Under the pieces are notes generated by a model. It did not search any database. It was not told the origin of the DNA and was given only the letters and a program-made list of their open reading frames with translations. Source: Phormidium sp. FACHB-1136 (GTDB taxonomy: Bacteria; Cyanobacteriota; Cyanobacteriia; Phormidesmidales; Phormidesmidaceae). From it: DNA of 64,000 nucleotides. This document shows positions 39,528-60,333 of this stretch, piece by piece; position 1 is the first letter of the stretch; every line of letters begins with the position of its first letter. Position numbers and translations under genes: made by a program. Where the stretch lies: positions 1 through 64,000 of the forward strand of contig NZ_JACJRS010000005.1 in NCBI RefSeq assembly GCF_014697375.1. Direction: 5' to 3'.

Positions 39528-39644
39528 GGGCACCCCCCACAAAACACGCAAGCTAAGGCTAGCGTAGATTGTGGAGTTTGGCGTCATTGGGCTGGGTGAG
39601 CGGCCCGCCAGGTTTGGTTAGGCCATACGTCCCCGATCATTGCT

Positions 39645-39728
39645 TATAGTCTATACAATGGGACTCCAAAGGGTGCCAAAGGTGAGAAAGGTTTTCAATC
39701 GCGCTCTATTCATCGCGTATAGTCTATA
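39645..39728. promoter_or_regulatory. Paired TATAGTCTATA palindromes, 73 bp apart
   Basis: The 11 bp palindrome TATAGTCTATA occurs exactly at 39645-39655 and 39718-39728, in the spacer between two divergent genes. The centre-to-centre distance is 73 bp, close to seven helical turns, so both sites face the same side of the DNA. The right copy ends 7 bp before the 39736 start. It fits a dimeric repressor that loops DNA, or duplicated -10-like elements. The regulator is unknown. Confidence 0.55.
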
Positions 39729-39735
39729 GGTAACA

Positions 39736-40512
39736 ATGATCCAACGTTTCAATGGCCACAAAAGCATGAAACAGTGTATCGGGCAACTTGCCGTCTTCAC
39801 GATGGCCGCGATGGTGGGGGGATGGTTCACGGCTTTCCCCCAGGGAGGCGCGACAGAGGCTATGGCCAAACCGACTAGCGGTCAGCCCGATAGCCGTTCT
39901 ACCATCACCTCATCCACAACCCCATCGGTTTATCTGCCCCAGGCTCCGGTGTTGATGCAAGGGGTGGTGGCTCCCCTAAATTCCTTGCGTCTGATGAAGC
40001 GAGCCTTAGCTAAGGCAGGAGATGCCTCAGCCCTTGTGAATCTGCCACTACTCGCTATCCTCAATGAACCGCTGAAAACCACCGGACTTGGCCCTATCCA
40101 AATTGGCATGACCCTGGACGATCTAGAGGAAATTGGCCTGACTCCCATTCCCTTAGAAGGCAGTGGCGATGGCGTGTGCCAGTACTATCGAATTAAGGGC
40201 AACAGCGAACCCATTGGGCTAATGGCCATTGGCGGTCGAATTCTTCGCATTGATGTGTGGCCCGGTAGCATCATCGAAACCCGCAGCGGCGCAAAAATTG
40301 GCTCCACGGAGGCCGAACTTGTCCGTCTCTATAGGAATCAGCTAGAGGCCACGGCCAACCCCGTCACCCTTGGCAAAACCATTGTGTTTACGCCCCGCGA
40401 TCCTGGTGAAGATCTATTTCGCCTAGTCTTTGAAACCGATGATCGGGGGGAAGTGGTGCAGTATCGGGCCGGACAATTTCCCTCCGTTACCTGGCCAGGG
40501 GGATGCCTCTAG
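39736..40512 (+). CDS. Secreted protein of unknown function
   Basis: 258 residues (or 248 from ATG 39766). The signal peptide is KQCIGQLAVFTMAAMVGGWF, with a likely cleavage after EAMA. A disordered Ser/Thr stretch is followed by a globular domain with GLGPIQIGMTLDDLEEIGL, CQYYRIKGNSEPIGLMAIGG and GAKIGSTEAELVRLY. Part of this resembles the lipoprotein at 14371. Two Cys (in GVCQYY and the terminal GGCL) could form a disulfide. Its promoter region has the paired 11 bp palindromes. Confidence 0.65.
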   Translation: MIQRFNGHKSMKQCIGQLAVFTMAAMVGGWFTAFPQGGATEAMAKPTSGQPDSRSTITSSTTPSVYLPQAPVLMQGVVAPLNSLRLMKRALAKAGDASALVNLPLLAILNEPLKTTGLGPIQIGMTLDDLEEIGLTPIPLEGSGDGVCQYYRIKGNSEPIGLMAIGGRILRIDVWPGSIIETRSGAKIGSTEAELVRLYRNQLEATANPVTLGKTIVFTPRDPGEDLFRLVFETDDRGEVVQYRAGQFPSVTWPGGCL

Positions 40513-40523
40513 GGGGCTGGGGG

Positions 40524-40982
40524 TTAACCTTGGCTACGGTTCGTGTGGCGGACAATCCAATAGCTGATGGCCAGGGAAAAAATGGCAATGGCTAGACCAA
40601 TTAATGTGGTGCCTGAGATTTGATTGAGGTCAAGAATAATAATCTTTCGTCCTACGGCGGTTAACGCAGTGGCAATGACCAACTCCACCTGAACCACATG
40701 ACTGCGGATATAGCCCGTAATGTTTTCTAGAATTTCTAGGGCAATTAAGATACTCAGGAAAAACCCAAAAATATCAATAACAGGCTGTCCCAAAAATGTG
40801 CCAGGGCTAGTGGTAAGAATAGAGTGCACGATCACGATGCCTAAATCGATGACCATGGCAATAATAACCACAATCATCCCCATGGACAGCACCTTGGAAA
40901 TGGTGCCTTCAAACTGATGGAGGCGTTTGAGAAAAATATCGTTTTTCAATTGTGTAAGGAGCTGTCTAGCCGAACGAGCCAT
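40524..40982 (-). CDS. PsiE-family membrane protein
   Basis: 152 residues with four TM helices: VLSMGMIVVIIAMVIDLGIV, VIDIFGFFLSILIALEILEN, VELVIATALTAVGRKIIILD and TLIGLAIAIFSLAISYWIVR. The pairing ILENITGYIRSHVVQVELVI is typical of the phosphate-starvation-inducible PsiE family. The name is historical; function is unknown and no Pho box was seen. Predicted plasma-membrane location. Confidence 0.75.
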   Translation of the reverse strand: MARSARQLLTQLKNDIFLKRLHQFEGTISKVLSMGMIVVIIAMVIDLGIVIVHSILTTSPGTFLGQPVIDIFGFFLSILIALEILENITGYIRSHVVQVELVIATALTAVGRKIIILDLNQISGTTLIGLAIAIFSLAISYWIVRHTNRSQG

Positions 40983-41013
40983 CGGTACAAGGGGTTTAGG
41001 GAGGCAGAAATGC

Positions 41014-43248
41014 CTAAGGTCTAGATGATTCTACCGGATCGCGTTGAACCATAGCGGCTCGCTGGGGGGGCGCTTCCCCTAATTTTTCTAAGGTGTCTAA
41101 TTGAACCGAGGACGACAGAGGAACCACCTGCACCGCACAGGCCTTTAGCTCTGGCTGGAGAGAAATGGGACAGGCGCTGGGGTGGGTGAGGGCGTTGCAT
41201 TCGGCGGATTCGGCCCAGAGGGCTCCCCAGTGCATGGGCACAAACAGGGTGCCGGGGCAAATGTTTTTGGTCACCAACAGGGGCAAACGGGCCATGCCAC
41301 GGGCAGATTTCACCTCCACCCAGTCTTGATCGGCAAGCTGGAGCCGTTCGGCATCGCGGGGGTGCATTTCTAGAAACGGCTGGGGGTGCATTTTTTGAAT
41401 TTTGGCGATGCGTCCGGTGCGGGTTTGGGTGTGCCAGTGGCCATAGAGCCGCCCGGTGGTGAGGACGAAGGGATAGCGGTCATCCACAGGTTCGGCCAAC
41501 CCTTTTTCGTGGTAGGCCATGAATCGAGCGCGGCCATCGGGGTAGTGGAAGCGGTGATCGGTGTAGAGGCGTTTGTTGTGCTTGTCGGGGGAGGTATCGG
41601 GATTTCCCTGACTTGGACAAGGCCACTGAATGGGGCGGGTGGCGAGGTTTTCGTGGCTGATGCCCGTCATATCGCAGGGACGACCCTGGGTGATTTGCAC
41701 AAATTCCCGGTGGACTTCGGCACTCGTGGCGAACCGGAACTGCTCAGCAAAGCCCAGGCGGCGACCGACTTCAGCAAAAATTTCCCAGTCGGCACGGGCC
41801 TCTCCCACCGGGGGCCGAAAGGCTTGGCAAAGGGTGACGGTGCGTTCAGAATTCGTCATGGTGCCTGTTTTTTCGCCCCACTGGGCCGCTGGCAGCAGCA
41901 GGTGGGCATAGGCGGCGGTTTCGGTGGGGTAGTAGGCGTCTTGGTAAACGGTGAAGGGGGATCGTTGCAGGGCGGCCTTGGTGCGGTTCAAGTCTGGCAA
42001 GCTGACCGCTGGGTTGGTGGCGGCAATCCATAGTAGCCCCACTTGGTCATGCTCTAGGGCGGGGATCATCTCGCCCACGGTTAGGCCACGGGTGGGGGAA
42101 ATGCGGCCTTCGGGTAAACCCCAAAATTGCTCGATGTCCTGGCGGTGCTGGGGATTTTTCACCAGGCGATATCCCGGCAAAATGTGGGCCAAACCGCCTG
42201 CCTCGCGGCCTCCCATCGCATTCGGCTGTCCGGTGAGGGAAAACGGCCCTGCCCCTGGTTTGCCGATTTGCCCCGTCAGCAGGTGCAGGTTAATCAGCGA
42301 ACAGACCTTGGCAGTGCCCTCGGAGGACTGGTTCAGCCCCATCGACCACAGAGAGAGGACGTTTTGGGACTCGGCCCAGGTGCGGGCGGCGGTTTCTAGG
42401 TCGGTTTCGGGGATGCCGCAGCGCTCGGCGACGATGCTGGGTGCGTAGTGGCGCAGGACTTCCCTATAGTCCTGAAAACCCTGGGTGGACTGGTCGATGA
42501 AGCCCCGATCCAACGCGCCCCACGTCAGCAGCAGGTGGCCGATGCCGTTCAGCAGAGTGATGTCGGTGCCGGGACGGATGGCCAGGTGCAGGTCGGCGAC
42601 CTGGGCGGTTTCGGTGCAGCGAGGATCCACCACAATTAGCTTGATATGGGGATTGCGCTTGTGGTGCTTGCGCAGACGGTTGAAGACAATGGGGTGACAT
42701 TCGGCGGTGTTGGTGCCGATCAGGAAGGCGCAGTCGGTAAGGTCGAGATCCGCATAGCAGCAGGGTGGCCCATCGGAACCCAAGCTTTGCAGATAGCCCG
42801 ACACCGCCGAGGACATACAGAGCCGCGAGTTGGCGTCAAAATTGTTCGTTCCCAAGCAGCCCTTAATCAGCTTTTGGGCGACATAATAATCCTCGGTTTG
42901 GAACTGCCCAGAGCCGTACATACAGACCCCATCCGGCCCTAGGGTGTCTATCACCTCGCGAATACGGTGGGTGATGGCGTCCAAGGCCACATCCCAAGAC
43001 ACCCGCTCAAAGGGCGCATCCAACGACTCCCGCAGCATCGGGTACAGCAGCCGATCCTGGTCGATGGATTCCGCTACGGTGGCCCCCTTCACACAAACCA
43101 TGCCCTGGCTGGAGGGATGGGCACGGTCGCCCCTGGTCTGCCAGCGTTGGGTTTCCGGCGATGCTTCGGGGTTGCGGGACTGGGGCACGACCTCCAATCC
43201 ACACCCAACACCGCAATAGGGACAGAGGGTTTTGTGAGGGGCCGTCAT
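41014..43248 (-). CDS. narB: Ferredoxin-dependent nitrate reductase
   Basis: Reduces nitrate to nitrite with ferredoxin. 744 residues of the molybdopterin-oxidoreductase family. The N-terminal 4Fe-4S site is [12 protein letters not shown] plus the fourth Cys in MVCVKGATV. Molybdenum-bis-MGD contacts include [20 protein letters not shown] and [17 protein letters not shown]. The C-terminal domain has [21 protein letters not shown]. It has no Tat signal, as expected for the cytoplasmic cyanobacterial enzyme. It is downstream of nirA on the same strand across 371 bp that hold a palindromic repeat, so co-transcription is possible but unproven. Confidence 0.95.
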
Positions 43249-43469
43249 AGCTATCTATGTATAGGAATAAGAAGGAAGGACTGAGAAGGATAAAAGAGGC
43301 TAGGAAAGGGGGAAATCCTATGCTAGGCTGCAAGCATTAATGCAAACTGTGTGTCCCTGGCGCGAACGATAGCGGCAGGGCATTTTTTTGAAACCCTCAC
43401 CCCCTGAGTCTCCCTCTCCCTAGAGTTACCGCTCATACACATCTTGTTTTCATGCCGTAAGTCTTGGGA

Positions 43470-43545
43470 GATCCCCCTAAATCCCCCTTATGAAGGGGGA
43501 CTTTGACTCCGGTTCCCCCCTTAAAAAGGAGGGCTAGGGGGGATC
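43470..43545. repeat. 76 bp dispersed palindromic repeat between nirA and narB
   Basis: The outer arms are GATCCCCCTA and TAGGGGGGATC. Inside are two smaller G/C-run hairpins, AATCCCCCTTATGAAGGGGGA and TTCCCCCCTTAAAAAGGAGGG. The layout is that of the MITE-like or REP-like palindromes found many times in filamentous cyanobacteria (established pattern). The rest of the 43249-43619 spacer holds no gene. Confidence 0.8.
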
Positions 43546-43619
43546 AATTCTCAGCACAAAGCAGGCTAGAGACTGATGTATGTTCGGTAGCCCCGTGGGA
43601 GAGGGGTTGGGGGGGATGG

Positions 43620-45221
43620 CTACTCCATCGTTACCGAGACCTGACCCACGAAGGCATCCTCACCGGAGCGGGGTTGGGCCTGGAAGTGCTCCATCAACAG
43701 GGTTTTGAGGACATCGGGCAGATCGTCGCAGGGGATGCCCTGCATGACTTTTTCGCCGAGGTGGGCGTCTTTGCCGACCTTGCCGCCCATGAAGATATCC
43801 ACGCCTTCCAGGGTTTTGCCGTCCTTGCGGACTTTGGTACCCATCAGGCCAATATCCGCCACCTGGGGCTGGCCGCAGGAGTTGGGACACCCCGTCCAGT
43901 GGATGCGAACGGGGTTGGGTAGGGTGAGTTCGGCATCCAGAGTCTTAGCGAGAACCTGGGCGCGTTGTTTGGTTTCCACCAGGGCAAAGTTGCAGAATTG
44001 CGCCCCGGTGCAGGAGACCACGGATCGCGCCAGGGGGGACGGATCAACGGAGAACTTCTGTAATAAGGGTTCTTCCAGCAGCACGGGCAAGCGGTCATCG
44101 GGCACGTTGGGGAGGATCACGTTTTGCTCCACCGTCAGCCGCAATTCGCCGTCACCGTAGACTTCGGCCAACCGAGCCAATTCGTAGAAATCCTCAGCCC
44201 AGAGGCGACCGACGGGCACATGCAGTCCCACATAGTTCAGCCCCGCCTGCTTTTGGGCATAAACGCCGATGTGATCGCGCTTATCCCAGTCCATTTCGTC
44301 CTTGTCGGCGGCGGATAGAAGGGGCTGGCCGTAGGCCGCTTCCACCTCCGTGCGGAAGCGATCCAGGCCCCATTCGTCGATCAGCCACATCAGGCGGGCT
44401 TTTTGGCGGTTCACCCTGGGGCCGTTGTCGCGGTAGACCTCTAGGATGGCGCGGCTGAGGGCAACCACGCTGTCATCGGCGGGCACCCAGGCCTTGAGGG
44501 GAATGGCGGCCTCGCAGCGACGGGCGGAAAAGAAGCCCCCCACCAGCACGTTAAAGCCGAGAATGCCTTCCCGAAAAGCGGGGACAAAGGCAATATCGTT
44601 AATTTCGGCGTGGATAGAGTTGTCGCGCCCACCCTCGATGGCGATGTTGAATTTGCGGGGCAAATTGCTAAATTCAGGATTGCCCTGGCCGTTGCCCGTG
44701 ATCATATCCTGGATGTTTTGTACCAGTTCCCTCGTATCGATTAACTCATCGGCATCAAGGCCCGCAACCGGAGAACCCGTGATGTTGCGCACGTTGTCCA
44801 TGCCGGATTGAACCGAAGTCAGCCCCACCGCCTCTAGCTGACTAAAAATATCGGGAATATCCTCTAGCAAAATGCCGCGCAGTTGAAGATTTTGCCGCGT
44901 TGTAATGTCGGCACTGCCATCTTCACCATAGCGTTGAATGATGTTGGCCAAGGTGCGGGCTTGGCGACTGACTATTACCCCGTGGGGGAGCCGCAGCCGC
45001 AGCATGAATTTACCAGGAGTGACAGGCCGAAAGAAAATGCCCAGCCACTTGAGGCGATGGGTTAAATCGGTCTCATCCACCGCTTCCCAGCCAATTTTGG
45101 CGAAATGATCTAGATCATGCTTGACCAGCAAGCCATCCTTTTCGGCCTTCAGTTTTTCAAACTTATTCTGTTTCGTGCTAGCGGCTTCGCTAGTCCTATC
45201 CATAGAAATAGTCACAGGCAC
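43620..45221 (-). CDS. nirA: Ferredoxin-nitrite reductase
   Basis: Six-electron reduction of nitrite to ammonium. 533 residues; the siroheme/4Fe-4S ligands are in CTGAQFCNFALVETK and WTGCPNSCGQPQ (Cys-x5-Cys and Cys-x3-Cys). The repeated substrate-binding halves are seen in LRLRLPHGVIVSRQARTL with ITTRQNLQLRGILLED, and in LNYVGLHVPVGRLWAEDF. An N-terminal Lys-rich head precedes DHFAKIGWEAVDETDLTHRL. There is no C-terminal 2Fe-2S extension. An NtcA-type promoter lies 200 bp upstream, so expression should rise in ammonium-free medium. Confidence 0.95.
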   Translation of the reverse strand: MPVTISMDRTSEAASTKQNKFEKLKAEKDGLLVKHDLDHFAKIGWEAVDETDLTHRLKWLGIFFRPVTPGKFMLRLRLPHGVIVSRQARTLANIIQRYGEDGSADITTRQNLQLRGILLEDIPDIFSQLEAVGLTSVQSGMDNVRNITGSPVAGLDADELIDTRELVQNIQDMITGNGQGNPEFSNLPRKFNIAIEGGRDNSIHAEINDIAFVPAFREGILGFNVLVGGFFSARRCEAAIPLKAWVPADDSVVALSRAILEVYRDNGPRVNRQKARLMWLIDEWGLDRFRTEVEAAYGQPLLSAADKDEMDWDKRDHIGVYAQKQAGLNYVGLHVPVGRLWAEDFYELARLAEVYGDGELRLTVEQNVILPNVPDDRLPVLLEEPLLQKFSVDPSPLARSVVSCTGAQFCNFALVETKQRAQVLAKTLDAELTLPNPVRIHWTGCPNSCGQPQVADIGLMGTKVRKDGKTLEGVDIFMGGKVGKDAHLGEKVMQGIPCDDLPDVLKTLLMEHFQAQPRSGEDAFVGQVSVTME

Positions 45222-45421
45222 ACCGCCTTAAGAACAGTCAACAACACAATGAAAACCCATCAATAAGCGACATCAAAATCTAGATTTCCGTAGATGTATC
45301 CAGCGTTTCAATGCCATTCAAAGGGACCGTTGGATAGATAGCGAAAGCACTAATGAAGTGGATAGGAAATATTTTCCACTCCTAGAAAACTCTTTAAATC
45401 ATTCCGCGACTTAGCATAATT

Positions 45422-45464
45422 ACCATAAACGGCGCATTTCCAAGGGTTTTGTATCTCTCAATAC
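45422..45464 (-). promoter_or_regulatory. NtcA-activated promoter of nirA
   Basis: GTATCTCTCAATAC at 45451-45464 is a perfect match to the NtcA consensus GTA-N8-TAC and reads as such on both strands. On the minus strand, 23 nt after it, is TATGGT (45427-45422), fitting the TAN3T -10 of class II NtcA promoters, which lies 22-23 nt away. The distance from here to the nirA ATG is about 200 bp. NtcA activates nitrogen-assimilation genes when 2-oxoglutarate is high. Confidence 0.88.
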
Positions 45465-45479
45465 GCTTTTAGGCGATCC

Positions 45480-45516
45480 ATGCAGGTCATGCAAGATTCA
45501 ATTGCGCGACCTGCAT
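45480..45516. promoter_or_regulatory. Spaced 9 bp inverted repeat next to the NtcA site
   Basis: ATGCAGGTC (45480-45488) is complementary to GACCTGCAT (45508-45516), with 19 bp between. It lies 15 bp from the NtcA box and about 110 bp before the HEAT gene start. The long spacing suits a LysR-type site such as one for NtcB, the nitrite-responsive activator of nir operons. That assignment is inference. Confidence 0.45.
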
Positions 45517-45624
45517 AGTTGTATGCCGTCATCGGCTATCAATAGATACAGGCGGGCTTCGGGAACTGGCCCCGCGTCCCCGCGCAGTATTGCGGCGCAT
45601 CCCACGCCGATAGGGAGAAAGGCT

Positions 45625-46773
45625 TTGCTAGATTTTGTTGACCCCTCGGCTTCATCCCAGACGTCCCTAGAGTCCCAATCCAGGGTCGATAGCCCCCGAT
45701 ACCGGGTGAATTTGAGGCAGGGTAGCTTTGAGGATCGGTGGGAAGCCGTCAAGCAGATTCCCCGCCTGGGTGAGTCCGCGATTCCCGATCTGATCGCTAT
45801 GCTGAGGGATGAAACCTTGGTCTGGGAAATCCGCTGGTTCTCGGCCCGCAGCCTAGGAAGCTTTGACCACCCGATGGCGATTACAGCCCTAATTGACGCC
45901 CTGGGCACCGCCGACCAGGACTTGCAGGAGGCGATTATCGATGCCCTCGGCCACATTGGCCCTAGCGCGATTCAGTCCCTCAGCACCCTGGTGACCGAGG
46001 CGACTTATCAAACCCTGGTCATCGAGGTGCTGACCCGCATTCCCCACCCCGCCACCCAGGTTCCCCTGGTTGCCGCCGTTGACCTCACGACCGGAACGAC
46101 CCAGGCCAAGGTGATTGAAGCCCTGGGCCAGTTCGCGGATCTTGACCTGCTGCCGATTTTTACCCAGGCGGTTCAAAACAAGGCGTCCTCGGTGCGGCTG
46201 GCGGCGCTGCAAGGGTTGATTCGCCTTAGAACGCAGGTGGATGAGTCGGGCTGGGTGGCGTGGATTCAGCCGTTGGTTCAGGATGTGAACCCCACCGTGG
46301 CCCAGCGGGCGATCCATGCCCTCGGACGCACTCCTCACCTAGCCGCCACCCGGACGCTCCAAGGGTTGCTAGAGGCCATCCATACCCCAGAACCCCTCAA
46401 AATAGCCGCTTCCCAGGCCCTCGCATGGCAGGGCACCGCCGCTGCCCTAGCGGTGTTGATCCAAACCTGGGACACCTTGGGCCAAGATACTCGCATCGCT
46501 CTGGTGCAGGGGCTTTCCCAAATCACCCACCCTGGCCTCAAAACTCAGATGAGCCAACCAGTGCAGCAATGGTTAAACACCCTTCCCGCCACGGCAGATC
46601 ACAGCCTCCTGCGCCGCAATTTAGTGATGTTGCTAGGGCAAATTGGCGATGATACGGCCCTCCCCATACTGCAAACCCTGAGCCAGGATGCCGATGCGGG
46701 GGTTCGTTTCCATGCTGAAGCAGCCCTGCGCTCAACCCCCGTTCTAAAGCAGGGGGCTAGGGTTCGGATTTGA
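45625..46773 (+). CDS. HEAT-repeat protein, divergent from nirA
   Basis: About 382 residues of repeated HEAT/PBS-lyase-type helix pairs: WEAVKQIPRLGESAIPDLIA, RWFSARSLGSFDHPMAITAL, LQEAIIDALGHIGPSAIQSL and six or more later units ending RFHAEAALRSTPVL. HEAT solenoids are binding platforms; phycobilin lyases share the repeats, but this protein lacks an obvious lyase head. Its place opposite nirA resembles nirB in other cyanobacteria, whose product is needed for full nitrite reductase activity; homology cannot be checked here. I prefer TTG 45625, with GGGAGAAAGG 3-12 bp upstream. ATG 45523 is the alternative, adding 34 residues that look non-conserved. Confidence 0.7.
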   Translation: MLDFVDPSASSQTSLESQSRVDSPRYRVNLRQGSFEDRWEAVKQIPRLGESAIPDLIAMLRDETLVWEIRWFSARSLGSFDHPMAITALIDALGTADQDLQEAIIDALGHIGPSAIQSLSTLVTEATYQTLVIEVLTRIPHPATQVPLVAAVDLTTGTTQAKVIEALGQFADLDLLPIFTQAVQNKASSVRLAALQGLIRLRTQVDESGWVAWIQPLVQDVNPTVAQRAIHALGRTPHLAATRTLQGLLEAIHTPEPLKIAASQALAWQGTAAALAVLIQTWDTLGQDTRIALVQGLSQITHPGLKTQMSQPVQQWLNTLPATADHSLLRRNLVMLLGQIGDDTALPILQTLSQDADAGVRFHAEAALRSTPVLKQGARVRI

Positions 46774-50413: not shown

Positions 50414-51418
50414 CTAGTTGGCCTCAGGGCGGGGTGTCTGCACCAGCCGAAACCCGATGTGGGTGGTTCCGGTGTCGGGGGCTTGGGATTCGCGGGCGGC
50501 GGGGCGATAGCGGCTGCAATAGTTTTTGGCACAGAGGTAGGAACCGCCTTTGATGACGTGGGTGGCTCCATCCTGGGGCTTTTTGGGGTCGTAGCTCACC
50601 GCTTGGGTGGGGCCAGTGGGGTCGTGCTGGTGGGCGAGGTCGTCGTGGTAGACCGTGAACCAACTGGAGGTGAGTTCCCACACGTTGCCCGCCATGTCGT
50701 ACAGCCCGTAGCCATTGGGCGGAAAGGACATCACCGGGGCCGTGCCCAAATGGCCGTCCGCCTTGGTGTTGAAGAAGGGAAATAGCCCCTGCCAGGTGTT
50801 GGCCTGCTTGGCGGAATACTGTTCGCCCCAGGTATAAGTCCAGCCTTCGGATCCTCCACGGGCGGCGTATTCCCACTGGGCTTCGGTGGGCAATTGGCGG
50901 CCCGCCCAAGCGGCGTAGGCTTCGGCATCCTCGTAGGCGATGTGGACGACGGGATGATTCTCCTTGCCCTGCAAATCGCTATCTGGGCCAAAGGGGTGTT
51001 GCCAGTTGGCCCCCGGCACCCAATGCCACCAGCTTAGGTAGGCCACCTGCTGCACCCCCTCCTCCGGCGGCTGAAACACCAAGGAACCCGGTGCCCGCTG
51101 ATCCTCCGGCAAATCTGGGAACTGATCCTTTGATAGGGGCCGCTCCGCCACCGTCACATAGCCCGTCTCTTGCACAAAGGCCGCAAACTGGGCGTTCGTC
51201 ACCTCATGGGGTTCGATACAAAAACTGCTGACGGAGACATCCTCGGCAATTTTTTCCTCCACAAAATCGGAGACCCCATCCCCCATGGTGAACGTCCCGC
51301 CAGGGATAAACACCATATCGTTAGGGCAAGGGGAAGCCTCCGCCAACGCTGGGCAAGGGAAGAAGAAAAGGGCAAGGATGAGAAGAACGTAAGGGATCCA
51401 ATAACGGGGTAGAGCCAT
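50414..51418 (-). CDS. Secreted formylglycine-generating enzyme (sulfatase activator)
   Basis: Converts the sulfatase active-site Cys to formylglycine. 334 residues from ATG 51418. The signal peptide is YWIPYVLLILALFFFPCPALA. The mature FGE fold opens DMVFIPGGTFTMGDGVSDF and continues EVTNAQFAAFVQETGY, GRQLPTEAQWEYAARGG and GYGLYDMAGNVWELTSSWF. The copper-binding Cys pair is intact in GGSYLCAKNYCSRYRPAAR (Cys296 and Cys301, five apart as in known FGEs). Many FGE-fold proteins lack these Cys, so this one is likely a true FGE. An arylsulfatase is encoded 7 kb upstream on the same strand. Confidence 0.88.
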   Translation of the reverse strand: MALPRYWIPYVLLILALFFFPCPALAEASPCPNDMVFIPGGTFTMGDGVSDFVEEKIAEDVSVSSFCIEPHEVTNAQFAAFVQETGYVTVAERPLSKDQFPDLPEDQRAPGSLVFQPPEEGVQQVAYLSWWHWVPGANWQHPFGPDSDLQGKENHPVVHIAYEDAEAYAAWAGRQLPTEAQWEYAARGGSEGWTYTWGEQYSAKQANTWQGLFPFFNTKADGHLGTAPVMSFPPNGYGLYDMAGNVWELTSSWFTVYHDDLAHQHDPTGPTQAVSYDPKKPQDGATHVIKGGSYLCAKNYCSRYRPAARESQAPDTGTTHIGFRLVQTPRPEAN

Positions 51419-51566
51419 GGGGAAATGGAAAATTTTGTAGGGTGCATTCGCGCAGCAATGCACCACTTAGGACATCGGTGCAGAGTGCATCTCATCATTG
51501 GAAAAGGGCAATCAACATGCTATTCGTTGGCAAGTGGCGCTTGTGATGGGTTTGGCCCACCCTGTG

Positions 51567-51705: not shown

Positions 51706-53190
51706 TCAGGCGGGATTTTCTGCGGTTTTCGTTTGCCGTTTGGCCCAAACGTTATAGGGCAAGGCCGTCACCGCACCGATCACGACGTAGGCGATCACCG
51801 TAGGGATAGCGTTTCCGCCTCCGTTAGCGGCAAGGAGGAAGAGGGCGAGTCCGGCGTTGCGGGCGATGGTTCCGGTGGCAACGGCGGAACGCACGGCGAT
51901 CTCTGGCCCACCGAGGAAGTGGCCGCAGGCGAGGCCGAAGATCACAATCAGCGGAATCGCCACCAAGCCGCGCCATGCGATGGTGGGCAGCACCACAATG
52001 CTGATGCCGAGGGCAAACACCAGCAGCACCGCAAACAGCGTACTGGCAATCACCGACAGCAGTTGGCCTACGTTGGCAGCTTGTTCCCCGCTGAATCGAC
52101 GCAGGGCGATCCCCAGCCCCAGGGGCAAAAACTGGGCGAGAAGCACCTGCTTAACAATGATCAGATAGTCGGCGCTGGCATCGATGGGGGCAAACAGGCT
52201 ACTGAGCACCCACAGGGTCAACGGCGTAGTCACGGTCGCCAATAGGGCCAGCGTAACCTGAAGGCTAATGGCTACATCAGGATTGCTGCCCGCCATCGCC
52301 GCCCGCCGAGACAGCAGGGGTGCCCCCGGTGCTGCTGCCAACACACCCAGGCCCAAGGCCACTCGCCCCACCCCCGGCTGCCCCCCGCTGAGCACCAGAT
52401 AGCCAATCACCACCGCCCCCACCGGGAACAGCACCAGGGTAGAGAGCAGGGAACGCCTCAACAAACTGGGCTGCTGCCATAGGGTCGCAAGGCTGCTGAG
52501 GGAAGTTTGCGCCCCCAGGCTGAGCATCAAAATAAAAATAATTAAAGCCGCCAGGGTAGTGATGACGCGGCTGTTGAGGGTAAACACCTCCGCCATTTGC
52601 ACGCCCCCCACCGCTAGGGGAATGAAGGCCGCCAGCCCCAGAAACAGCAGTACCGTGGCCACCACCAACCCCTGCGACCAGGTGGGGCCATACTTGTAAT
52701 CGTCGGATTCAATGGTTTTCAGCATCGTCCAGTGGTTGATAATCGCCATCACCAGCGTCACCAGACCAAGGGTCATCAGGCTCAGGCCCAGCACCCGCTC
52801 CTCCGTCAGGCGGTTGATACCGAGATCGGTTTCGGTGCGATCCAGGTAGGTGAACAGGCGATCAATGCCAAAGCCAAAGCTAATCATCGACAGCGCTGTG
52901 CGAATCCAGGCCATCAGGGTGCGTTCTTCGGCGGCACGGGTGCGCTCCTTAGCCAGTTCCGTCCGCAGTTCGGCCAGGTCTGTTCGCTCGATGGAAAGCC
53001 CGGTGCGCTTCTCGGCCAGTTCGGTGCGCTGTTCCGCCAGTTCGGTACGATTCTCGGCTAATTCCGTGCGTTTTTCGGCCATAGCCGTACGATTTTCGGC
53101 CAGTTCAGTCCGTTTCTCAGCCATGACCGTGCGCTGCATGGCGAGTTCGTTGTTATTCGGCAAGGGAGATGGGGGTTCGGTAGAAGACAT
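51706..53190 (-). CDS. DUF202-BASS fusion membrane protein with twelve heptad repeats
   Basis: 494 residues. Residues about 15-98 are twelve tandem heptads of the form x-L/M-A-E-x-R-T (for example ELAENRTAMAEKRTELAENR), in the same register as the DUF202 signature EERTLMAWIRTALSMISFGF, into which they run. DUF202 with its TM helices reaches about 190. A further eight or nine TM helices follow, with APGAPLLSRRAAMAGSNPDV as the clearest block, resembling bile-acid:sodium symporter (BASS)-type transporters. I infer a transporter with a coiled-coil head. It lies between the DUF202 gene at 53665 (85 bp upstream) and FGE, same strand. Substrate unknown; the BASS call is by topology. Confidence 0.65.
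   Translation of the reverse strand: MSSTEPPSPLPNNNELAMQRTVMAEKRTELAENRTAMAEKRTELAENRTELAEQRTELAEKRTGLSIERTDLAELRTELAKERTRAAEERTLMAWIRTALSMISFGFGIDRLFTYLDRTETDLGINRLTEERVLGLSLMTLGLVTLVMAIINHWTMLKTIESDDYKYGPTWSQGLVVATVLLFLGLAAFIPLAVGGVQMAEVFTLNSRVITTLAALIIFILMLSLGAQTSLSSLATLWQQPSLLRRSLLSTLVLFPVGAVVIGYLVLSGGQPGVGRVALGLGVLAAAPGAPLLSRRAAMAGSNPDVAISLQVTLALLATVTTPLTLWVLSSLFAPIDASADYLIIVKQVLLAQFLPLGLGIALRRFSGEQAANVGQLLSVIASTLFAVLLVFALGISIVVLPTIAWRGLVAIPLIVIFGLACGHFLGGPEIAVRSAVATGTIARNAGLALFLLAANGGGNAIPTVIAYVVIGAVTALPYNVWAKRQTKTAENPA
52897..53148 (-). repeat. Array of twelve 21 bp (seven-codon) repeats in the DUF202-BASS gene
   Basis: Codon-level repetition, period 21 bp, encodes xLAExRT twelve times; only Ala and the Arg-Thr pair are nearly constant. 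The third base varies between units, so selection seems to act on the protein. The last unit is the DUF202 motif itself, suggesting expansion from it. Confidence 0.8.
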
Positions 53191-53275: not shown

Positions 53276-53665
53276 TCAAGAAATCAGGGGACTGATGAGG
53301 ATGCCGAGGAAGGCGATGCCCCCTAACCCCGTGAGGACGTAGGCCACAATCAGGGACGGGGACTGGCGAGATTGGTAGACCAGATCGTTGCGCTGAATGC
53401 GTTGGAGTTGGCGCTGATGGTCAAGGGCGGCGAACAGCATGGCAAAGGTGCCCAGGGCCACAAAGGAGAGGCCCAAAATGCGCGACAGCCGCAGGGGGTT
53501 GACGGCATCGCCTAGGGCTTGGTGGATGGCGGCGACGATGCGCTCAATCCCGAAGCCAAAACCAATCAGGGCGAGAGCGGTGCGAATCCAGGCCATGAGC
53601 GTGCGTTCGGCGGCGGCGCGGTTGCGTTCTTTGGCGAGTTCGGTGGCGGGATTGAGTTCGGTCAT
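53276..53665 (-). CDS. DUF202 (YidH-like) membrane protein
   Basis: 129 residues. The N-terminal LAKERNRAAAERTLMAWIRT and GFGFGIERIV are the DUF202 hallmark. Three TM helices: ALALIGFGFGIERIV, LGLSFVALGTFAMLFAAL and VAYVLTGLGGIAFLGILI. The family includes the membrane part of eukaryotic Vtc1 but its bacterial role is unknown. It is the stand-alone form of the domain fused to the BASS-like part in the next gene. Confidence 0.85.
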   Translation of the reverse strand: MTELNPATELAKERNRAAAERTLMAWIRTALALIGFGFGIERIVAAIHQALGDAVNPLRLSRILGLSFVALGTFAMLFAALDHQRQLQRIQRNDLVYQSRQSPSLIVAYVLTGLGGIAFLGILISPLIS

Positions 53666-53795
53666 AGGGGGTCAGTGAGCTAATAAACAAGGGTGTTTTT
53701 GAATGCTGAATGGTGGATTTTGAATGGTGAACTCTGAATTGTGAAATTTGGGTTTTAGATCGTTAAAAATTAGGCTATTCTCAAAGCAACTCAAC

Positions 53796-53821
53796 ATATC
53801 CTCACGGGATATCCTCACGGG
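53796..53821. repeat. 13 bp tandem duplication before the plus-strand DUF202 gene
   Basis: ATATCCTCACGGG occurs twice in tandem, ending 18 bp before the start at 53840. The upstream 60 bp also repeat variants of GAATGGTGAA. This AT-richer patch (53690-53800) stands out from the GC-rich surroundings. Confidence 0.75.
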
Positions 53822-53839: not shown

Positions 53840-54244
53840 ATGACAGATTCGACACCACAAAAACCCATTAACACCACCAATGAGCTAGCCAAGGAACGCA
53901 ATCGGGCAGCGGCGGAACGGACGATCAATGCCTGGTTGGGAATTTGTCTGAGTTTGATCGGTTTCGGTGTGGCCTTTGACCAAATTTTTCTCAGCCTAAG
54001 GCAGCGCTTCCCTGAGACAAGTTCGACTATTACAAGGGAGGCCGCCACACTGATTGGCATGGGCTTTGTGGAAATAGGACTGGTTTTATTAGGTGTAGGG
54101 CTAGTACAACATCGGTTGGCTATTAAAAGCATTGAGCACCCCAATTATGTAATGCTATCGACAAGAAAGCTAAATCGTATCGTCGTTATTGGCATTGTGA
54201 TTCTTGGTATCGCTGGATTTTTTGCCACCTTATTTTTGATTTAG
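53840..54244 (+). CDS. DUF202-like membrane protein on the opposite strand
   Basis: 134 residues with LAKERNRAAAERTINAWLGI, so its first 15 conserved residues match the gene at 53665 closely while the rest diverges (FGVAFDQIFLSLRQRFPETS). Three TM helices. Base composition is more AT-rich than its neighbours, and it is the only plus-strand gene of the cluster. GGGAGAACGGGGG precedes the ATG. It may be a duplicated and inverted, or recently acquired, copy. Confidence 0.75.
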   Translation: MTDSTPQKPINTTNELAKERNRAAAERTINAWLGICLSLIGFGVAFDQIFLSLRQRFPETSSTITREAATLIGMGFVEIGLVLLGVGLVQHRLAIKSIEHPNYVMLSTRKLNRIVVIGIVILGIAGFFATLFLI

Positions 54245-54293: not shown

Positions 54294-54683
54294 TCATACC
54301 CATAGCTGAAACCCCAACCAGAAGAACGCCAGAATCCCAACGATAAGTACCAGAAGCCCCGTAGTAGCTCCGAGTGGCCAACGGGGAGTATAACGATACA
54401 CAGGCGCTTTGAGACGTTGCATTTCACCCTGGTGATCGCGGATGGCAAAGACCAACGTAACGACACCTAAGCCCACTAACTCCAGGCTGAGAAGATAGGC
54501 CCAGGCATCGATAAAGCGCCCCCCCGGAGCAATGGCACTCACCACTTGATCGACCCCTACCCCAATCCCAATTAGAGTAAGACTGCTGCGAACAAAAGAC
54601 AGCAGGGATCGATCTGCGGCCAAGTGATTGCGCTCGCGGGCCAGTTCATCTTGGGGATTAAAATCAGAGGTGGGGTTGGTCAT
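54294..54683 (-). CDS. DUF202 membrane protein
   Basis: 129 residues. LARERNHLAADRSLLSFVRS is a divergent DUF202 motif (Arg-Ser replaces Arg-Thr). Three TM helices follow, including SLTLIGIGVGVDQVVSAIA and LLSLELVGLGVVTLVFAI. Its start overlaps the DUF1622 stop by 4 bp (54680-54683), so it is translated with it. A degenerate copy of the hairpin repeat (about 54265-54285) lies just beyond its stop. Confidence 0.8.
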   Translation of the reverse strand: MTNPTSDFNPQDELARERNHLAADRSLLSFVRSSLTLIGIGVGVDQVVSAIAPGGRFIDAWAYLLSLELVGLGVVTLVFAIRDHQGEMQRLKAPVYRYTPRWPLGATTGLLVLIVGILAFFWLGFQLWV

Positions 54684-55141
54684 GGGTGAGCACTCGGTGG
54701 TGGGGTATCTTTGGGAGGGATTTCCATAAAGTCTAGGGGGCTATCCAGCATATGGAGGGGGGGATAGTTGTGGGTAATGGCCTTCTCACGAAATTCCATT
54801 TGAGCTTCAATTTCTTTGTTTAAGAAGTAGTTCAAAAAGGTGCGAATGACAGCAATAACCGAGAGGCGAACAAGCGCTTCATTGGTGGGGGTAATGGCTG
54901 TACTCAAAATATCAGCGCCAAGTTGAAATTCTAAGGCTAGGGCCAGCCAAAGACCAAATTTTAGCCGAATTTGAATAAATGGCAGCATCACCCGATGACG
55001 ATGTTTGAGGATTTTTAGCGCCAGTCGAGCGGTGACGATAATCCCCACAAAAATGCAGATTACTCCTAGGGCTTCTAGGATGGTTTCGCCAAGGGTGGCC
55101 AGATGAAAGGAGAAGGTTTCGATGACTTCTAACCAGGGCAT
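54680..55141 (-). CDS. DUF1622 family membrane protein
   Basis: 153 residues. Family features: ILEALGVICIFVGIIVTARL, the basic linker LKILKHRHRVMLPFIQIRLK, LWLALALEFQLGADILSTAI and LVRLSVIAVIRTFLNYFLNK. Three TM helices, with a Pro-rich C-terminal tail. Function unknown. The gene starts 3 bp after the MFS stop and overlaps the DUF202 start downstream, so it belongs to one transcript. Confidence 0.82.
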   Translation of the reverse strand: MPWLEVIETFSFHLATLGETILEALGVICIFVGIIVTARLALKILKHRHRVMLPFIQIRLKFGLWLALALEFQLGADILSTAITPTNEALVRLSVIAVIRTFLNYFLNKEIEAQMEFREKAITHNYPPLHMLDSPLDFMEIPPKDTPPPSAHP

Positions 55142-55144
55142 GGC

Positions 55145-56632
55145 TTAACCTCCTTGATGGGGCGACGGGACGGACAGCGAGGCGCTGGATGCAACCTGAG
55201 ACCGCTCCCAGTCCTGCACGGCTTCGAGGGATTGCCCCGTGGTTTCGATGCGGAAGCGATGGGTGATCAGCGCCGCTAGGACACAAATCGCCGCTAATCC
55301 TACCAGCAGGGGCGGAATCCCCCAAGACTTGGCGATAACTGGCAACACAAAGGTGCCCAACACCGCCCCCGCCTTGGCAAAGGAGGCCGCAAATCCAGCC
55401 CCGGTGGCCCGCAGATGGGTGGGAAAGACTTCTCCCGACAGCAGAAAGGTGGTGGCATTGGGGCCAGCGTTCATCATCAGGTTGAACACCAGAAATCCCG
55501 CTAACACCAGCCCCGTTTCGGCCCCGCTGCCCGCGCTCACTAGGCCGGAGGTCGCCAACAGCAGCAGCCCGACCGCCATGCCGAGGAAGCCCAGGATTTG
55601 CAGGCGCATCCGCCCCCAGCGCTCCACCAAGGCCACGGCGCAGAGGAAGCCGACGATCAGAAACACATCCACCAAAGCCGCTCCCTGGGCCGATTTGATT
55701 TCTCGCACCAAAAAGTTCGTTTCTGTGGAGAGGGCCAGCTTGGCGATGATCACCGGGGTAAAGATGCCGATGCCGTAGGTGGCGATGTCTTGCAAAAACC
55801 AGGGCAGGGAGGCCAGCAGGGTGCTACGGCGATGGGTTGGCGTAAACAGCGTGGACAGGGCGACGGGTTCGGTCTCCGGGGGCGGTTCCTCCTCGGCGGT
55901 GATGGTGATGGTTTCACCCAAGAGCTGGCTGGCGGCCTCAGAGGCTTCGGCGTACTCGCCCCGGCTGATGTGGTAGCGGGGGCTTTCTAGTTGGACGCTT
56001 AGCCGTACCGCTGCGACGGCTATCGCCAAAACCACGCCCACGCCCAGCATCCAGCGCCAAGCATACTGCACCGCCAGGGGTTCCGGGTCGGGATAGATGA
56101 CCTGGAACAGCGTGATCACCGCCACCCCCGTCAGCGCTCCCAGCATGGCCCCCACCGCCTGAAAGGTGAAGGCTCCGATCACCAATCGGCCCCGGTAGCG
56201 GGCGGGCACGTTTTCGGTGATGTAGGCAACGCTGATCGGGTAGTCGGCCCCGATGGCCACCCCCACCAAAAACCGAAAGGCAATCAGCGAGGCGGCATTC
56301 CAGGCCAGGGCCGTCCCCGCTGTGGCCACCACAAACAGCACCACATCCACAATCAGCATCGGCTTGCGGCCCACCTTGTCGGTGATTGGCCCTAGGGTAA
56401 TCGACCCCACCAGGGAACCCACCACCGCCGCCGTGGCCACCGCCCCCAGGGTGGCGGCATCCAGGCCAAAATCCCGCTTCAGGAAAGGGATGGCGACCCC
56501 GATGACAAAAAAGTCGAAGCCATCCAGGGCAATCAGCCCCGCCGACAGCAGCCACAGCAGCCCCATGGCACGGGTGAGGCCCGCATTGTCCAAGCGCTGC
56601 TCAAAGGATTGGGGAGGGATCGTTGCCGTCAT
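55145..56632 (-). CDS. MFS transporter (sugar/organic-anion porter type)
   Basis: 495 residues, twelve TM helices. The motif-A loop is GPITDKVGRKPM after TM2; GFDFFVIGVAIPFL in TM1 has the acidic residue seen in phosphate and aromatic-acid porters; ESPRYHISRGEYAEASEAAS is the central-loop helix typical of sugar-porter-like members. The second half has WGRMRLQILGFLGMAVG and a GEVFPTHLRATGAGFAAS motif. It would be expected to carry a sugar, phosphate ester or organic anion by proton symport; the true substrate is unknown. It overlaps the UPF0114 gene by 4 bp and precedes DUF1622 by 3 bp. Confidence 0.87.
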   Translation of the reverse strand: MTATIPPQSFEQRLDNAGLTRAMGLLWLLSAGLIALDGFDFFVIGVAIPFLKRDFGLDAATLGAVATAAVVGSLVGSITLGPITDKVGRKPMLIVDVVLFVVATAGTALAWNAASLIAFRFLVGVAIGADYPISVAYITENVPARYRGRLVIGAFTFQAVGAMLGALTGVAVITLFQVIYPDPEPLAVQYAWRWMLGVGVVLAIAVAAVRLSVQLESPRYHISRGEYAEASEAASQLLGETITITAEEEPPPETEPVALSTLFTPTHRRSTLLASLPWFLQDIATYGIGIFTPVIIAKLALSTETNFLVREIKSAQGAALVDVFLIVGFLCAVALVERWGRMRLQILGFLGMAVGLLLLATSGLVSAGSGAETGLVLAGFLVFNLMMNAGPNATTFLLSGEVFPTHLRATGAGFAASFAKAGAVLGTFVLPVIAKSWGIPPLLVGLAAICVLAALITHRFRIETTGQSLEAVQDWERSQVASSASLSVPSPHQGG

Positions 56633-57201
56633 TCCTCAGACTCCTTGGACTTAGCGCCATCGGCCCCTTCAAATTGCAGCAGGCGGGTACTGGCGGCGAG
56701 GGCCAAAATCGACAGGGGAATGACCAAATACGTCCACTCTAGACCTCGAAACGACAGCCGTTCTAGTAGTCCTTTGACAAAGATCACCGTTAACAGCACA
56801 ATCAGCACTTCCATCAAGGTCTTTTTGAGGGTGCTGATACCGCCCAATTTCGCCCAAGTACCCGCTTCGGTATCAGACTTTTCAAGCTGAATAAACAGTG
56901 CATAAATGCCGTAGGCAAAATATAAAAATGCCAGCCCTACCAGAAATTCATCCAGACATTCCAATAGCTCAATGGTGGCCAGTTCTGTGGGAGAAATGCG
57001 GCTCCCTTCTATCACAGATTCCTCGGCATTAACAGCCAGCATCACGGCTTTTAGGGTGTTGACGGTGCCAATTCCAAACATCAGCAACGCCCCAATCAAA
57101 GACGATGCCACCGCCAGCACACTCATAAAGCGAGTCCAGCGGATGGCCATCACCAAACGAGGCATGGTCGTGGCAGGTTTGGAGGAAGAGGAATCGGTCA
57201 T
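56629..57201 (-). CDS. UPF0114 (YqhA) family membrane protein
   Basis: 190 residues. Family blocks: FMSVLAVASSLIGALLMFGI, LLECLDEFLVGLAFLYFAYG and LMEVLIVLLTVIFVKGLLER. Four TM helices and a charged C-terminal tail (AKSKESEE). Function unknown; E. coli YqhA is an inner-membrane protein of the same family. It overlaps the MFS start by 4 bp (56629-56632). Confidence 0.8.
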   Translation of the reverse strand: MTDSSSSKPATTMPRLVMAIRWTRFMSVLAVASSLIGALLMFGIGTVNTLKAVMLAVNAEESVIEGSRISPTELATIELLECLDEFLVGLAFLYFAYGIYALFIQLEKSDTEAGTWAKLGGISTLKKTLMEVLIVLLTVIFVKGLLERLSFRGLEWTYLVIPLSILALAASTRLLQFEGADGAKSKESEE

Positions 57202-57257: not shown

Positions 57258-57941
57258 CTAGCCCTGGGGCAGGTTTTCGGACTGGTGGGTGTAGCTTTTC
57301 GTCAGAATATGGAGGCTGACCAGCAGCACCCACAGGGGGAACAGCAGCATGACCCAGCCCAAACTGTTGATGTAGCCAATTCTAAGCAGCATGATGGCGG
57401 CAAAGCCAAAGCCGATCCAGGCCGTCCAGCGGGGAATCACCCCCGTTCGCAGAAATAGGGTACAGCTAGAAATCATAAACACCCCGGCCATGCGAATGCT
57501 GTAGGTACTGAGGGTTTCGCGGGCGATGATGCGGCCTAGGTCGTAGACAGCGGGCAGATCAGATTCGGGGAGGCGGGTGGTGAGCAAAATCAGGCTACCT
57601 GTTACCGCTGAACTAACAAACAGCATGGCCACAAACAGTAGGCCGCTGCCCAGAAACACCGTGGCAAAAAATTGATCCTCCCGCTCCCCCAGCACGTCGC
57701 GCACCACCCCCATAAACCACAGGAAGGCAATCCCAGCAAAGGGCACCAGGTTCAGGGCCAGCAGCACGGCGGGCGTTTGGCTGAATAGTCCGCTCTCATT
57801 GTCTAAGGGCGTGGGTGGGGTCGCCAGCAAGATGAGGACGGAACTGATGATGAGCAACACCGAAAACAAAATGCCCGCGACGGCAGCCGCCTTGGGGGCT
57901 CGTAGGCGAGTGCGAGGGGGAAGCGGGGTATCTGAGGTCAT
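57258..57941 (-). CDS. Multi-TM membrane protein of unknown family
   Basis: 227 residues from ATG 57941 with about six TM helices, including AAAVAGILFSVLLIISSVLI, LALNLVPFAGIAFLWFMGVV, FVAMLFVSSAVTGSLILLTT and VMLLFPLWVLLVSLHILT. There are small Arg-Pro-rich head and Ser/His tail regions. I do not recognise a family. It begins the run of transporter-like genes (57201 follows after 56 bp) and is separated from the sulfatase by a 246 bp repeat-bearing spacer. Confidence 0.7.
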   Translation of the reverse strand: MTSDTPLPPRTRLRAPKAAAVAGILFSVLLIISSVLILLATPPTPLDNESGLFSQTPAVLLALNLVPFAGIAFLWFMGVVRDVLGEREDQFFATVFLGSGLLFVAMLFVSSAVTGSLILLTTRLPESDLPAVYDLGRIIARETLSTYSIRMAGVFMISSCTLFLRTGVIPRWTAWIGFGFAAIMLLRIGYINSLGWVMLLFPLWVLLVSLHILTKSYTHQSENLPQG

Positions 57942-58016
57942 GGGGGGAGCGTCGGGGTGAATGGCCAGCATGGGGGTAGCCCAGATCCTAGGATCTGTAG
58001 ATCACAAAGTCCCTGA

Positions 58017-58187: not shown

Positions 58188-59870
58188 TTAGTTGCTGCCG
58201 GGGGGGATGGATTGCAGTTGTTCTAGCACCTGATCCACCGTAAAGCTGGCGGCCTTTTGGCGGGGTGGATACTGCTTGAAGGTAGACAGAAATTCTGCCA
58301 CCTTGCCCTGGGCAGGCACCAGCAGGAAGATGTGATCCAAAATCCAATCCCAGTAGGTGTTGGAGGTTAGGGTGGCCCGTTCGTAGGGGTCTGTCCTCAG
58401 GTTAAAGATGTAGGGGAAGCGCAGGGGCCGGAATTCCCGCTGCCAAACATCCAGGGTGCCCATGGCGTCTTGCACTTTAAAGTGCAGCTTCCAGTTGTCG
58501 TAGCGCATGGCCAACAGGTCGCCATCGTCCGAGAAGTAGAAGAACTCCTGGCGGGGGCCTTCGGTGGTTTGGCCCGTCAGGTAGGGCAGGAAGTTGTAGC
58601 CGTCCAAATGCACCTTAAAGTTCCGACCAGCGGCCTTGTAGCCCGTCAGCAGTTTGTCCTTCACCTCTGGGGCACCCGCCGCCGCGAGGATGGTGGGCAT
58701 CCAGTCGAGGTGAGACATCACGTCGTTCGACACGGTGCCCGGTTGGATGTGCCCCGGCCAGCGCACCATGGCCGGAATCCGAAAGGCTCCTTCCCAGCCG
58801 GAGTTTTTCTCGTTGCGGAAGGGGGTCATGGCCGCATCGGGCCAGGAGTTCATGTGGGGGCCGTTGTCGGTGCTGTAGAAAACGATGGTGTTTTCGGCGA
58901 GGCCCAACTCATCCAGGGCATCGAGGATTTGGCCAACGTTTTTGTCGTGGTCCACCATCACATCGTGGTAGGGCGACTGCCAACGTCCGGCCTGCCCCAC
59001 GCTTTCGGGCTTGGGGTGGGTACGGAAGTGCATGTGGGTAAAGTTCGTCCACATAAAGAAGGGTTGCCCCGCTGTCGCCTGCTTCTTCAGGTAGTCTACC
59101 GAGCGGTCGGCGATGTCGTCGTCGATGGTTTCCATCCGCTTTTTGGTCAGCGGGCCAGTGTCTTCAATGCGGCCATCGGCGAAGGTGTGCAGCACCCCAC
59201 GGGGGCCAAAACGCTTGGCAAAGTTCGGGAATTCTTGGGGATCGGGATAGTCGGGCAGTTCCGGCTCTTCCTCGGCATTGAGGTGGTAGAGGTTGCCGTA
59301 GAACTCATCAAAGCCGTGGTTGGTGGGCAAAAATTCGTCCTTGTCGCCCAGGTGGTTTTTGCCAAATTGGGCGGTGGCATAGCCCTGGGCCTTCAGCAGT
59401 TCCGCAATGGTGGGATCCTCAGGCCGCAGCCCCAGATCCGAACCGGGCAGACCCACTTTGCTCATCCCGGTACGAAACACGCTCTGCCCCGTAATAAAGG
59501 CAGCGCGTCCGGCGGTGCAGCTTTGCTCACCGTAGTAGTCGGTAAAAATCACCCCTTCTTCGGCGATGCGGTCAATGTTGGGGGTGCGAAAACCCATCAG
59601 ACCCTTGGTGTAGGCGCTGATGTCACTCTGGCCGATGTCGTCGCCCCAAATCACCACAATGTTGGGCTTGGTGGGGGCGGTTGTCGCTGCGCTAGGGGCG
59701 CTACTAGCCGAGGAATAAGCGGCGGCCATGGCCTGACCATTCCCCAAACCCAGCCAGCTAGAGGGGGCCAGCACCAGGGTGATCGCCAAGGCTCCGGCGA
59801 TCAAACGAGTCAGGAGGCGAGGGGGAAGCGATCTTCCACGACGCCAAACCTGATGAGAAAAATTACTCAT
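58188..59870 (-). CDS. Exported arylsulfatase (type I, formylglycine-dependent)
   Basis: Hydrolyses sulfate esters. 560 residues from ATG 59870. Signal region RLIAGALAITLVLAPSSWLG is followed by AMAAAYSS. Metal pair Asp77-Asp78 is in IVVIWGDDIGQSD, and the formylglycine target Cys118 is in EQSCTAGRAAFITGQ (CxAxR type). Lys and His are in GKNHLGDKDEF, and the second metal half in YSTDNGPHMNSWPDA. The protein fits the arylsulfatase A-like family of bacterial periplasm or outer surface. The Cys is the substrate of an FGE, and one is encoded 7 kb downstream on the same strand. The alternative start at 59909 only adds 13 polar residues. Confidence 0.92.
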   Translation of the reverse strand: MSNFSHQVWRRGRSLPPRLLTRLIAGALAITLVLAPSSWLGLGNGQAMAAAYSSASSAPSAATTAPTKPNIVVIWGDDIGQSDISAYTKGLMGFRTPNIDRIAEEGVIFTDYYGEQSCTAGRAAFITGQSVFRTGMSKVGLPGSDLGLRPEDPTIAELLKAQGYATAQFGKNHLGDKDEFLPTNHGFDEFYGNLYHLNAEEEPELPDYPDPQEFPNFAKRFGPRGVLHTFADGRIEDTGPLTKKRMETIDDDIADRSVDYLKKQATAGQPFFMWTNFTHMHFRTHPKPESVGQAGRWQSPYHDVMVDHDKNVGQILDALDELGLAENTIVFYSTDNGPHMNSWPDAAMTPFRNEKNSGWEGAFRIPAMVRWPGHIQPGTVSNDVMSHLDWMPTILAAAGAPEVKDKLLTGYKAAGRNFKVHLDGYNFLPYLTGQTTEGPRQEFFYFSDDGDLLAMRYDNWKLHFKVQDAMGTLDVWQREFRPLRFPYIFNLRTDPYERATLTSNTYWDWILDHIFLLVPAQGKVAEFLSTFKQYPPRQKAASFTVDQVLEQLQSIPPGSN

Positions 59871-60333
59871 AGAGTTGCGGTCTCCATTCCGTGATTTTGC
59901 AATCAACAATGAAATTCAGCAGTGATTGAGTGGATTGTACGCTGAAGTCTTTTGCGGTCACTATTCAAAAAACGCAAGTTAATATAAAACGACAACCGCT
60001 TGTGCCGGATGTGCGAAGCCCAGCCACAACGCATCACGGACTGATTGGGCACCTCGATCTCGCGCTCCATAACCCGCCGTGTCAATTGCTCAGTCTCAGT
60101 CTCAGTCTCAGGTAGTGCATCTTAGGGCAGGCCAGAGGAAAAGATGGGGTCGCCTTGCTTGGCCCGCTTCTCTCTGAATGCAGCGATCTAATGCGGTGAT
60201 TGTAGTCACGGAGAACCTGCACCAGTCCCCCATCGTATTAAGGAAATCAACGCCTTCACGGTGCCTTTACAATTTGCCCCTATGCTAGGAGCACCGTGCA
60301 TTGCGGTGTCCTGACATATTGAGGGAGTGGGCA
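59871..60333. other. Intergenic region between the sulfatase and amylase genes
   Basis: 463 bp divergent spacer with the promoters of both. It includes a hexamer run (CAGTCT three and a half times, 60090-60111), and the last part is AT-richer. Nothing coding is recognised. GAGGGAGTG lies 4-12 bp before the amylase start. Confidence 0.4.

Follow-up and report, generated by a model that had tools for sequence, protein, structure and literature searches.

In the 64,000-nucleotide stretch of cyanobacterial DNA analyzed here (the window), a gene at positions 51706–53190 of the minus strand encodes a 494-residue protein in which twelve heptads lead into a DUF202 domain fused to a BASS permease, as identified from its open reading frame, its Pfam matches (DUF202 and SBF) and its orthologs. 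The heptad head is a real, selected feature, and the protein is a variant of the DUF202 plus BASS combination. The sequence and its relatives show that the head lengthens the first DUF202 helix outward and was made from 21/42-bp units duplicated in tandem and in phase. By alignment of profiles and predicted models, its repeated Leu/Ala/Arg/Thr face aligns with the face of yeast Vtc1 that lines the mouth of the polyphosphate channel of VTC; this correspondence is the central new point, and a pore in the fusion protein would be putative.

DUF202 occurs widely among bacteria and has hardly been studied; in the literature searched it is absent from the title and abstract of every paper that names it. 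Three lines connect the domain with a transporter here: the gene fusion, the gene neighborhood, seen in two phyla, and a heptad phase that it has in common with the VTC channel. The locus thus suggests for prokaryotic DUF202 a specific function that can be tested, namely a link to anion transport.

The heptad array and its history

The array (residues 16–99; 52894–53145, minus strand) consists of exactly twelve heptads of the form LxxxRTx without a phase break: LAMQRTV, MAEKRTE, LAENRTA, MAEKRTE, LAENRTE, LAEQRTE, LAEKRTG, LSIERTD, LAELRTE, LAKERTR, AAEERTL and MAWIRTA. An Arg thus recurs every 7 residues (20, 27, 34 and so on to 97). In unbroken phase the array enters the DUF202 domain (PF02656; residues 83–157; 52720–52944, minus strand; E 8e-15, 55.4 bits against a curated Pfam cut-off of 23.4), which is similar to the transmembrane (TM) domain of Vtc1. 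The SBF/BASS permease part follows (residues 195–494; 51709–52608, minus strand), with a match to PF01758 at residues 216–399 (E 3e-13, 50.1 bits against a curated Pfam cut-off of 24.3). The protein scores 42 bits against the bile acid:sodium symporter subfamily model TIGR00841, for which the NCBI cut-off is 326.3, and the polymerase (TTM) domain of the VTC polyphosphate polymerase is absent from it according to Pfam. A preliminary description of this DNA had counted twelve heptads at the N-terminus, read the last units as the DUF202 motif itself and placed a BASS-like permease behind the head; all of this holds, the last three heptads being the ordinary DUF202 motif.

The period-7 'RT' run has a length of 12 in the protein and of at most 2 among 5000 protein shuffles, and these shuffles together with the orthologs exclude a chance repeat or an alignment accident. 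In the DNA, a 21/42-bp repeat array is found at 53001–53124 (TRF). As the opposite strand also has open frames through the repeat, a frame error, a chimeric assembly or a wrong start was considered; this is extremely improbable, given that 13 further genomes carry the gene in this frame, mostly among the same neighbors. One of them is Leptolyngbya sp. BL0902, where the gene is annotated on a complete plasmid.

Selection on the head was evident at the codon level. The invariant Arg and Thr positions use four Arg codons and four Thr codons, and dN/dS against the closest ortholog is 0.018 for the head, 0.035 for the DUF202 core and 0.13 for the BASS part, which bears out the earlier proposal that third-base differences reflect maintenance of the head as protein. 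Between the doubled units 2–3 and 4–5 the differences are almost all synonymous and synonymous sites are nearly saturated, so this doubling is not fresh. An origin by 21-bp duplications, also proposed earlier, agrees with the TRF array in its period; the clearest length step spans two units (42 bp) and comes from the otherwise very similar BL0902 protein (genome G018), which is shorter by exactly one two-unit block, AMAEKRTELAENRT. Among 49 distinct array units, position 5 is invariably Arg and positions 1 (Leu/Met), 2 (Ala/Ser) and 6 (Thr) are nearly invariant, with positions 3, 4 and 7 variable and Glu/Asp occurring at positions 3 and 7; these figures describe units that are related by descent and were recognized partly by their Arg, and are not a test.

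Full fusions are present in 14 cyanobacterial genomes, namely seven of Nodosilinea (including the source genome), three of a sister genus, and G428, G502, G185 and G480; in the fusion of G008 a contig end falls inside the BASS part. Counting heptads in related genomes, a check set beforehand, showed that array and frame are conserved with 4–12 units. The Nodosilinea fusions have 12, 10, 10, 9, 9, 9 and 8 heptads, those of the sister genus 10, 10 and 10, and the distant ones 5, 5 and 5, with at least 4 strict units in G480 (the G185 heptads were counted by eye and include one Arg-Lys unit, and G480 was read only across its four strict units). No phase break occurs in any fusion head that was read out. 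A 5-unit DNA pattern run against 386 cyanobacterial genomes retrieved fusion heads only in the window and in one sister-genus genome, its remaining hits being judged unrelated 21-bp repeats by DNA alone. A recent expansion confined to Nodosilinea was rejected, as about 5 units are already present in distant fusions and the heads of the sister genus have 10. The head on a permease had been called unusual, a description that needs softening: several cyanobacterial families have the fusion, its head varies between relatives, and elsewhere its two parts are neighboring genes.

The fusion gene of BL0902 lies on a complete 93.5-kb plasmid, where it is annotated as a DUF202 protein, and that of G003 lies on a 3.8-Mb contig, so the gene is not always plasmid-borne. 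In the Nodosilinea genome G016 (C10:5612-6673), four heptads sit directly on the BASS part, the DUF202 core is missing and a truncated MFS gene adjoins; the cluster here is perhaps decaying, or the locus offers a natural experiment in deleting the DUF202 core.

Beyond cyanobacteria, the survey covered plasmid records. On a plasmid of Neorhizobium petrolearium, a stand-alone DUF202 protein (P0002, WP_037145520.1) carries ten LSxxRT-type heptads, and the DUF202 proteins of Phyllobacterium and Microvirga, its closer kin, have about four. Ten units against about four in its kin mean that the head was lengthened at least twice, each time from a local unit, and, as judged from these units, the Neorhizobium head grew independently of the cyanobacterial fusion head.

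With close relatives at 8–10 units and distant ones at 4–5, no particular head length appears to be required. Minisatellite drift, in which slippage gains and loses 21/42-bp units, a helical head of any kind is tolerated as long as it stays in phase with TM1, and length has no function, would account for the spread of copy number among the close relatives and for the occurrence of the core fusion with 4–5 units. The low dN/dS of the head and the near-saturated duplicated units, with the protein kept, argue against it, as do the invariant Arg, the lack of any out-of-phase member among those seen and the separate growth in Neorhizobium; we consider drift unlikely. Head length varies by whole helical layers, and the natural variants, in which a single repeated helix ranges from 4 to 12 layers, form a ready series for probing the function of the repeat.

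The sulfatase gene cluster

The fusion gene belongs to a cluster whose order on the minus strand is as follows: an arylsulfatase with an N-terminal hydrophobic signal and a CTAGR active-site motif (58188–59909), a membrane protein without a family that is conserved in Nodosilinea clusters (57258–57971), a UPF0114 membrane protein (56629–57201), an MFS transporter (Sugar_tr; 55145–56632), a DUF1622 small membrane protein (54680–55141) and the stand-alone DUF202c (54294–54683), which overlaps the DUF1622 gene by 4 bp. Then come DUF202b, conserved in relatives and lying mid-cluster on the plus strand (53840–54244), DUF202a, with three heptads, on the minus strand 85 bp upstream of the fusion (53276–53665), the fusion itself, and a formylglycine-generating-enzyme-like (FGE) protein with a CxxxxC pair (50414–51466, minus strand). 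The genes for UPF0114, MFS, DUF1622 and DUF202c are tightly packed, with 4 bp overlaps and one 3 bp gap. DUF202b is without the last Arg of the motif (NAWLGI in place of MAWIRT). The gap between DUF202a and DUF202b contains short direct repeats at 53700–53745 and 53796–53821, of a 7/14-bp TGAATG type and a perfect 13-bp ATATCCTCACGGG doublet.

The CTAGR motif of the arylsulfatase, which fits the pattern C-x-P/A-x-R, and a CAKNYC motif in the FGE protein, both recurring in related loci, mark the locus as an FGE-dependent sulfatase cluster. The set of arylsulfatase, FGE, DUF1622, DUF202 and BASS genes recurs in cyanobacteria, and a Phyllobacterium plasmid has DUF202, sulfatase, SBF, FGE and DUF1622 genes, with DUF202 and BASS as separate genes. 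At six of seven cyanobacterial loci inspected, a stand-alone BASS gene and a four-heptad DUF202 gene lie no more than 1 kb apart, sometimes with DUF1622 in between; these loci were chosen partly for the apparent closeness of both hits, and the fraction is not unbiased. At the fusion loci of G027, G029 and G502 no close sulfatase was found within the stretches read. Across its 6 Mb the source genome has seven matches to the sulfatase family, so that a chance distance of only 5 kb is unlikely. On another contig (C57, region 37587-45827) the same genome has a second BASS-like gene, with two sulfatase-family matches no more than 8 kb from it.

At the Neorhizobium locus (L042:5651-10480), a tandem arylsulfatase pair lies beside the long-headed DUF202 gene. 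Next come DUF1622 and a phenol-degradation MetA-pathway family protein (PF13557), a hint that the substrate may be an aryl sulfate. In the titles and abstracts of the literature searched, nothing relevant was found on a link between DUF202 and sulfatases or on the function of DUF1622.

Predicted structure and possible function of the head

Structure prediction, likewise set beforehand as a check, gave a long helix: in two AF2 models, both monomer predictions from 3–6 sequences with a low-confidence BASS part, a single helix spans head and TM1 (residues 13–119). In the shorter model pLDDT is above 90 only at residues 21–50, and in the full-length model, built with three sequences, the BASS part is unusable (mean pLDDT 42.5). 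The charged coiled coil of the preliminary description could not be upheld in its classical form, with hydrophobic a and d positions, as each heptad of the head has one Leu/Met with a small Ala/Ser beside it, the other face position is the invariant Arg, and the hydrophobic moment is no different from that of shuffles.

In the VTC cryo-EM structure the channel is formed by five TM1 helices, and the basic residues that line it include K24/R31 of Vtc1, K622/R629 of Vtc4 and K698/R705 of Vtc3 (PMC9911596). Each of these pairs is spaced 7 residues apart. Sequence profile matches to VTC are weak (E about 0.1–0.3) and place R90 of the fusion on R31 of Vtc1. In a VIA-align search with a 200-residue model, rows 1–3 are VTC chains (Z 11.5–11.0), with unrelated helical rows reaching 10.7; the best row, 8i6v_C (Z 11.5, rmsd 3.3, 102 of 102 residues), aligns residues 79–197 of the model with residues 20–121, placing residue 79 on residue 20 of Vtc1. 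Taken together, the profile and model alignments put R83/R90 on K24/R31 of Vtc1, and on this correspondence the head would prolong the channel-lining face outward by about nine Arg positions. The many BAR, HlyD and chemoreceptor rows of the same search were taken as generic long-helix matches.

We tentatively favor, with somewhat less than even confidence, a reading of the fusion as a sulfatase-linked DUF202-BASS transporter whose elongated, Arg-faced helical bundle in the cytoplasm holds or steers anionic cargo. The DUF202 parts would assemble as an oligomer, as in the VTC pentamer, alone or with the three neighboring DUF202 proteins. In the cytoplasm, the heads would then pack into a bundle of helices that measures about 125 Å when helical throughout; rings of Arg and Thr, spaced about 10.5 Å, would face its interior. 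Such a bundle may both stabilize the assembly and, where the BASS permease opens to the cytoplasm, hold or steer an anion, possibly sulfate or an organic anion that the sulfatase releases. With every unit contributing one layer of the same kind, the length of the head would be tunable. In this mechanism we infer the oligomerization, the inward-facing Arg, the anion handling, and the direction and substrate of transport. A stronger form, in which the head is an extensible anion conduit, an Arg/Thr-ringed tube of over 100 Å layered by in-phase 21-bp duplication that feeds or drains the sulfatase-linked permease, is a doubtful proposition.

Units 1–9 of the head are approximately neutral in net charge (12 basic and 14 acidic residues), so a bundle would not be simply electropositive. 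Such a charge balance, with Glu/Asp occupying positions 3 and 7, suits a head that serves solely for oligomerization or docking, as a helical spacer joining DUF202 subunits (including a, b and c) or a cytoplasmic partner, its Arg salt-bridged to Glu/Asp of neighboring helices with no anion involved. The presence of four DUF202 genes in the cluster of the fusion, resembling the mixed Vtc1/3/4 pentamer, is consistent with such a stalk, and so is the N-terminus of Vtc1 (residues 1–21), which docks the polymerase linker and whose removal reduces activity and leaves no vacuolar polyP (PMC9911596). The positions of the would-be acidic partners (3, 4 and 7), however, are variable where the Arg never is, and the other DUF202 proteins, with about three heptads, cannot pair along the head; a stalk alone is somewhat less probable than the favored reading.

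The sharing of one face by Leu/Met and Ala, beside the Arg, might instead suggest a helix lying along the inner membrane face, with Leu/Ala dipped in and Arg on lipid head groups, as a positional anchor of the permease. The hydrophobic moment of the head, however, equals that of shuffled sequence, and the predicted helix enters TM1 straight and unbroken, which makes such an arrangement very unlikely.

Comparison with known systems

With the BASS/SBF transporters ASBT_NM and PanS, the fusion shares an SBF domain above the Pfam cut-off, and the profile match of its BASS part to ASBT_NM has an E of 6e-20; the N-terminal DUF202 part is extra. In TM9, EVGMQN of ASBT_NM is replaced by GTIARN in the fusion (within 51709–52608), which lacks the Glu and Gln that serve as Na+ ligands in ASBT_NM. 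In the profile alignment of seven relatives, Gly/Ala/Ser and Arg stand at the Glu and Gln places, and this Arg is invariant. Na+ coupling is therefore not to be assumed, and the BASS subfamily of the fusion may not be Na+-coupled.

The TM domain of Vtc1/Vtc3/Vtc4, part of a eukaryotic complex, may share with the fusion its three-helix arrangement and, at positions matched by the alignments, basic TM1 residues 7 apart. Unlike VTC, the fusion is bacterial, is joined to a BASS permease rather than to a polymerase or SPX domain, and has a far longer repeated head, with a pore that is putative. Stand-alone DUF202 proteins (PF02656) share with it the domain itself, the ERTxxAWxRT motif and three TM helices, and differ in having three heptads in the source cluster, or about four where they are BASS-linked, against 12 plus a permease in the fusion. 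The DUF202 protein of Neorhizobium petrolearium, with its long head of 10 units beside two arylsulfatases and DUF1622, is similar in both head and neighborhood, and is distinguished by its lack of a BASS fusion, its LSxxRT-type units and its independent growth.
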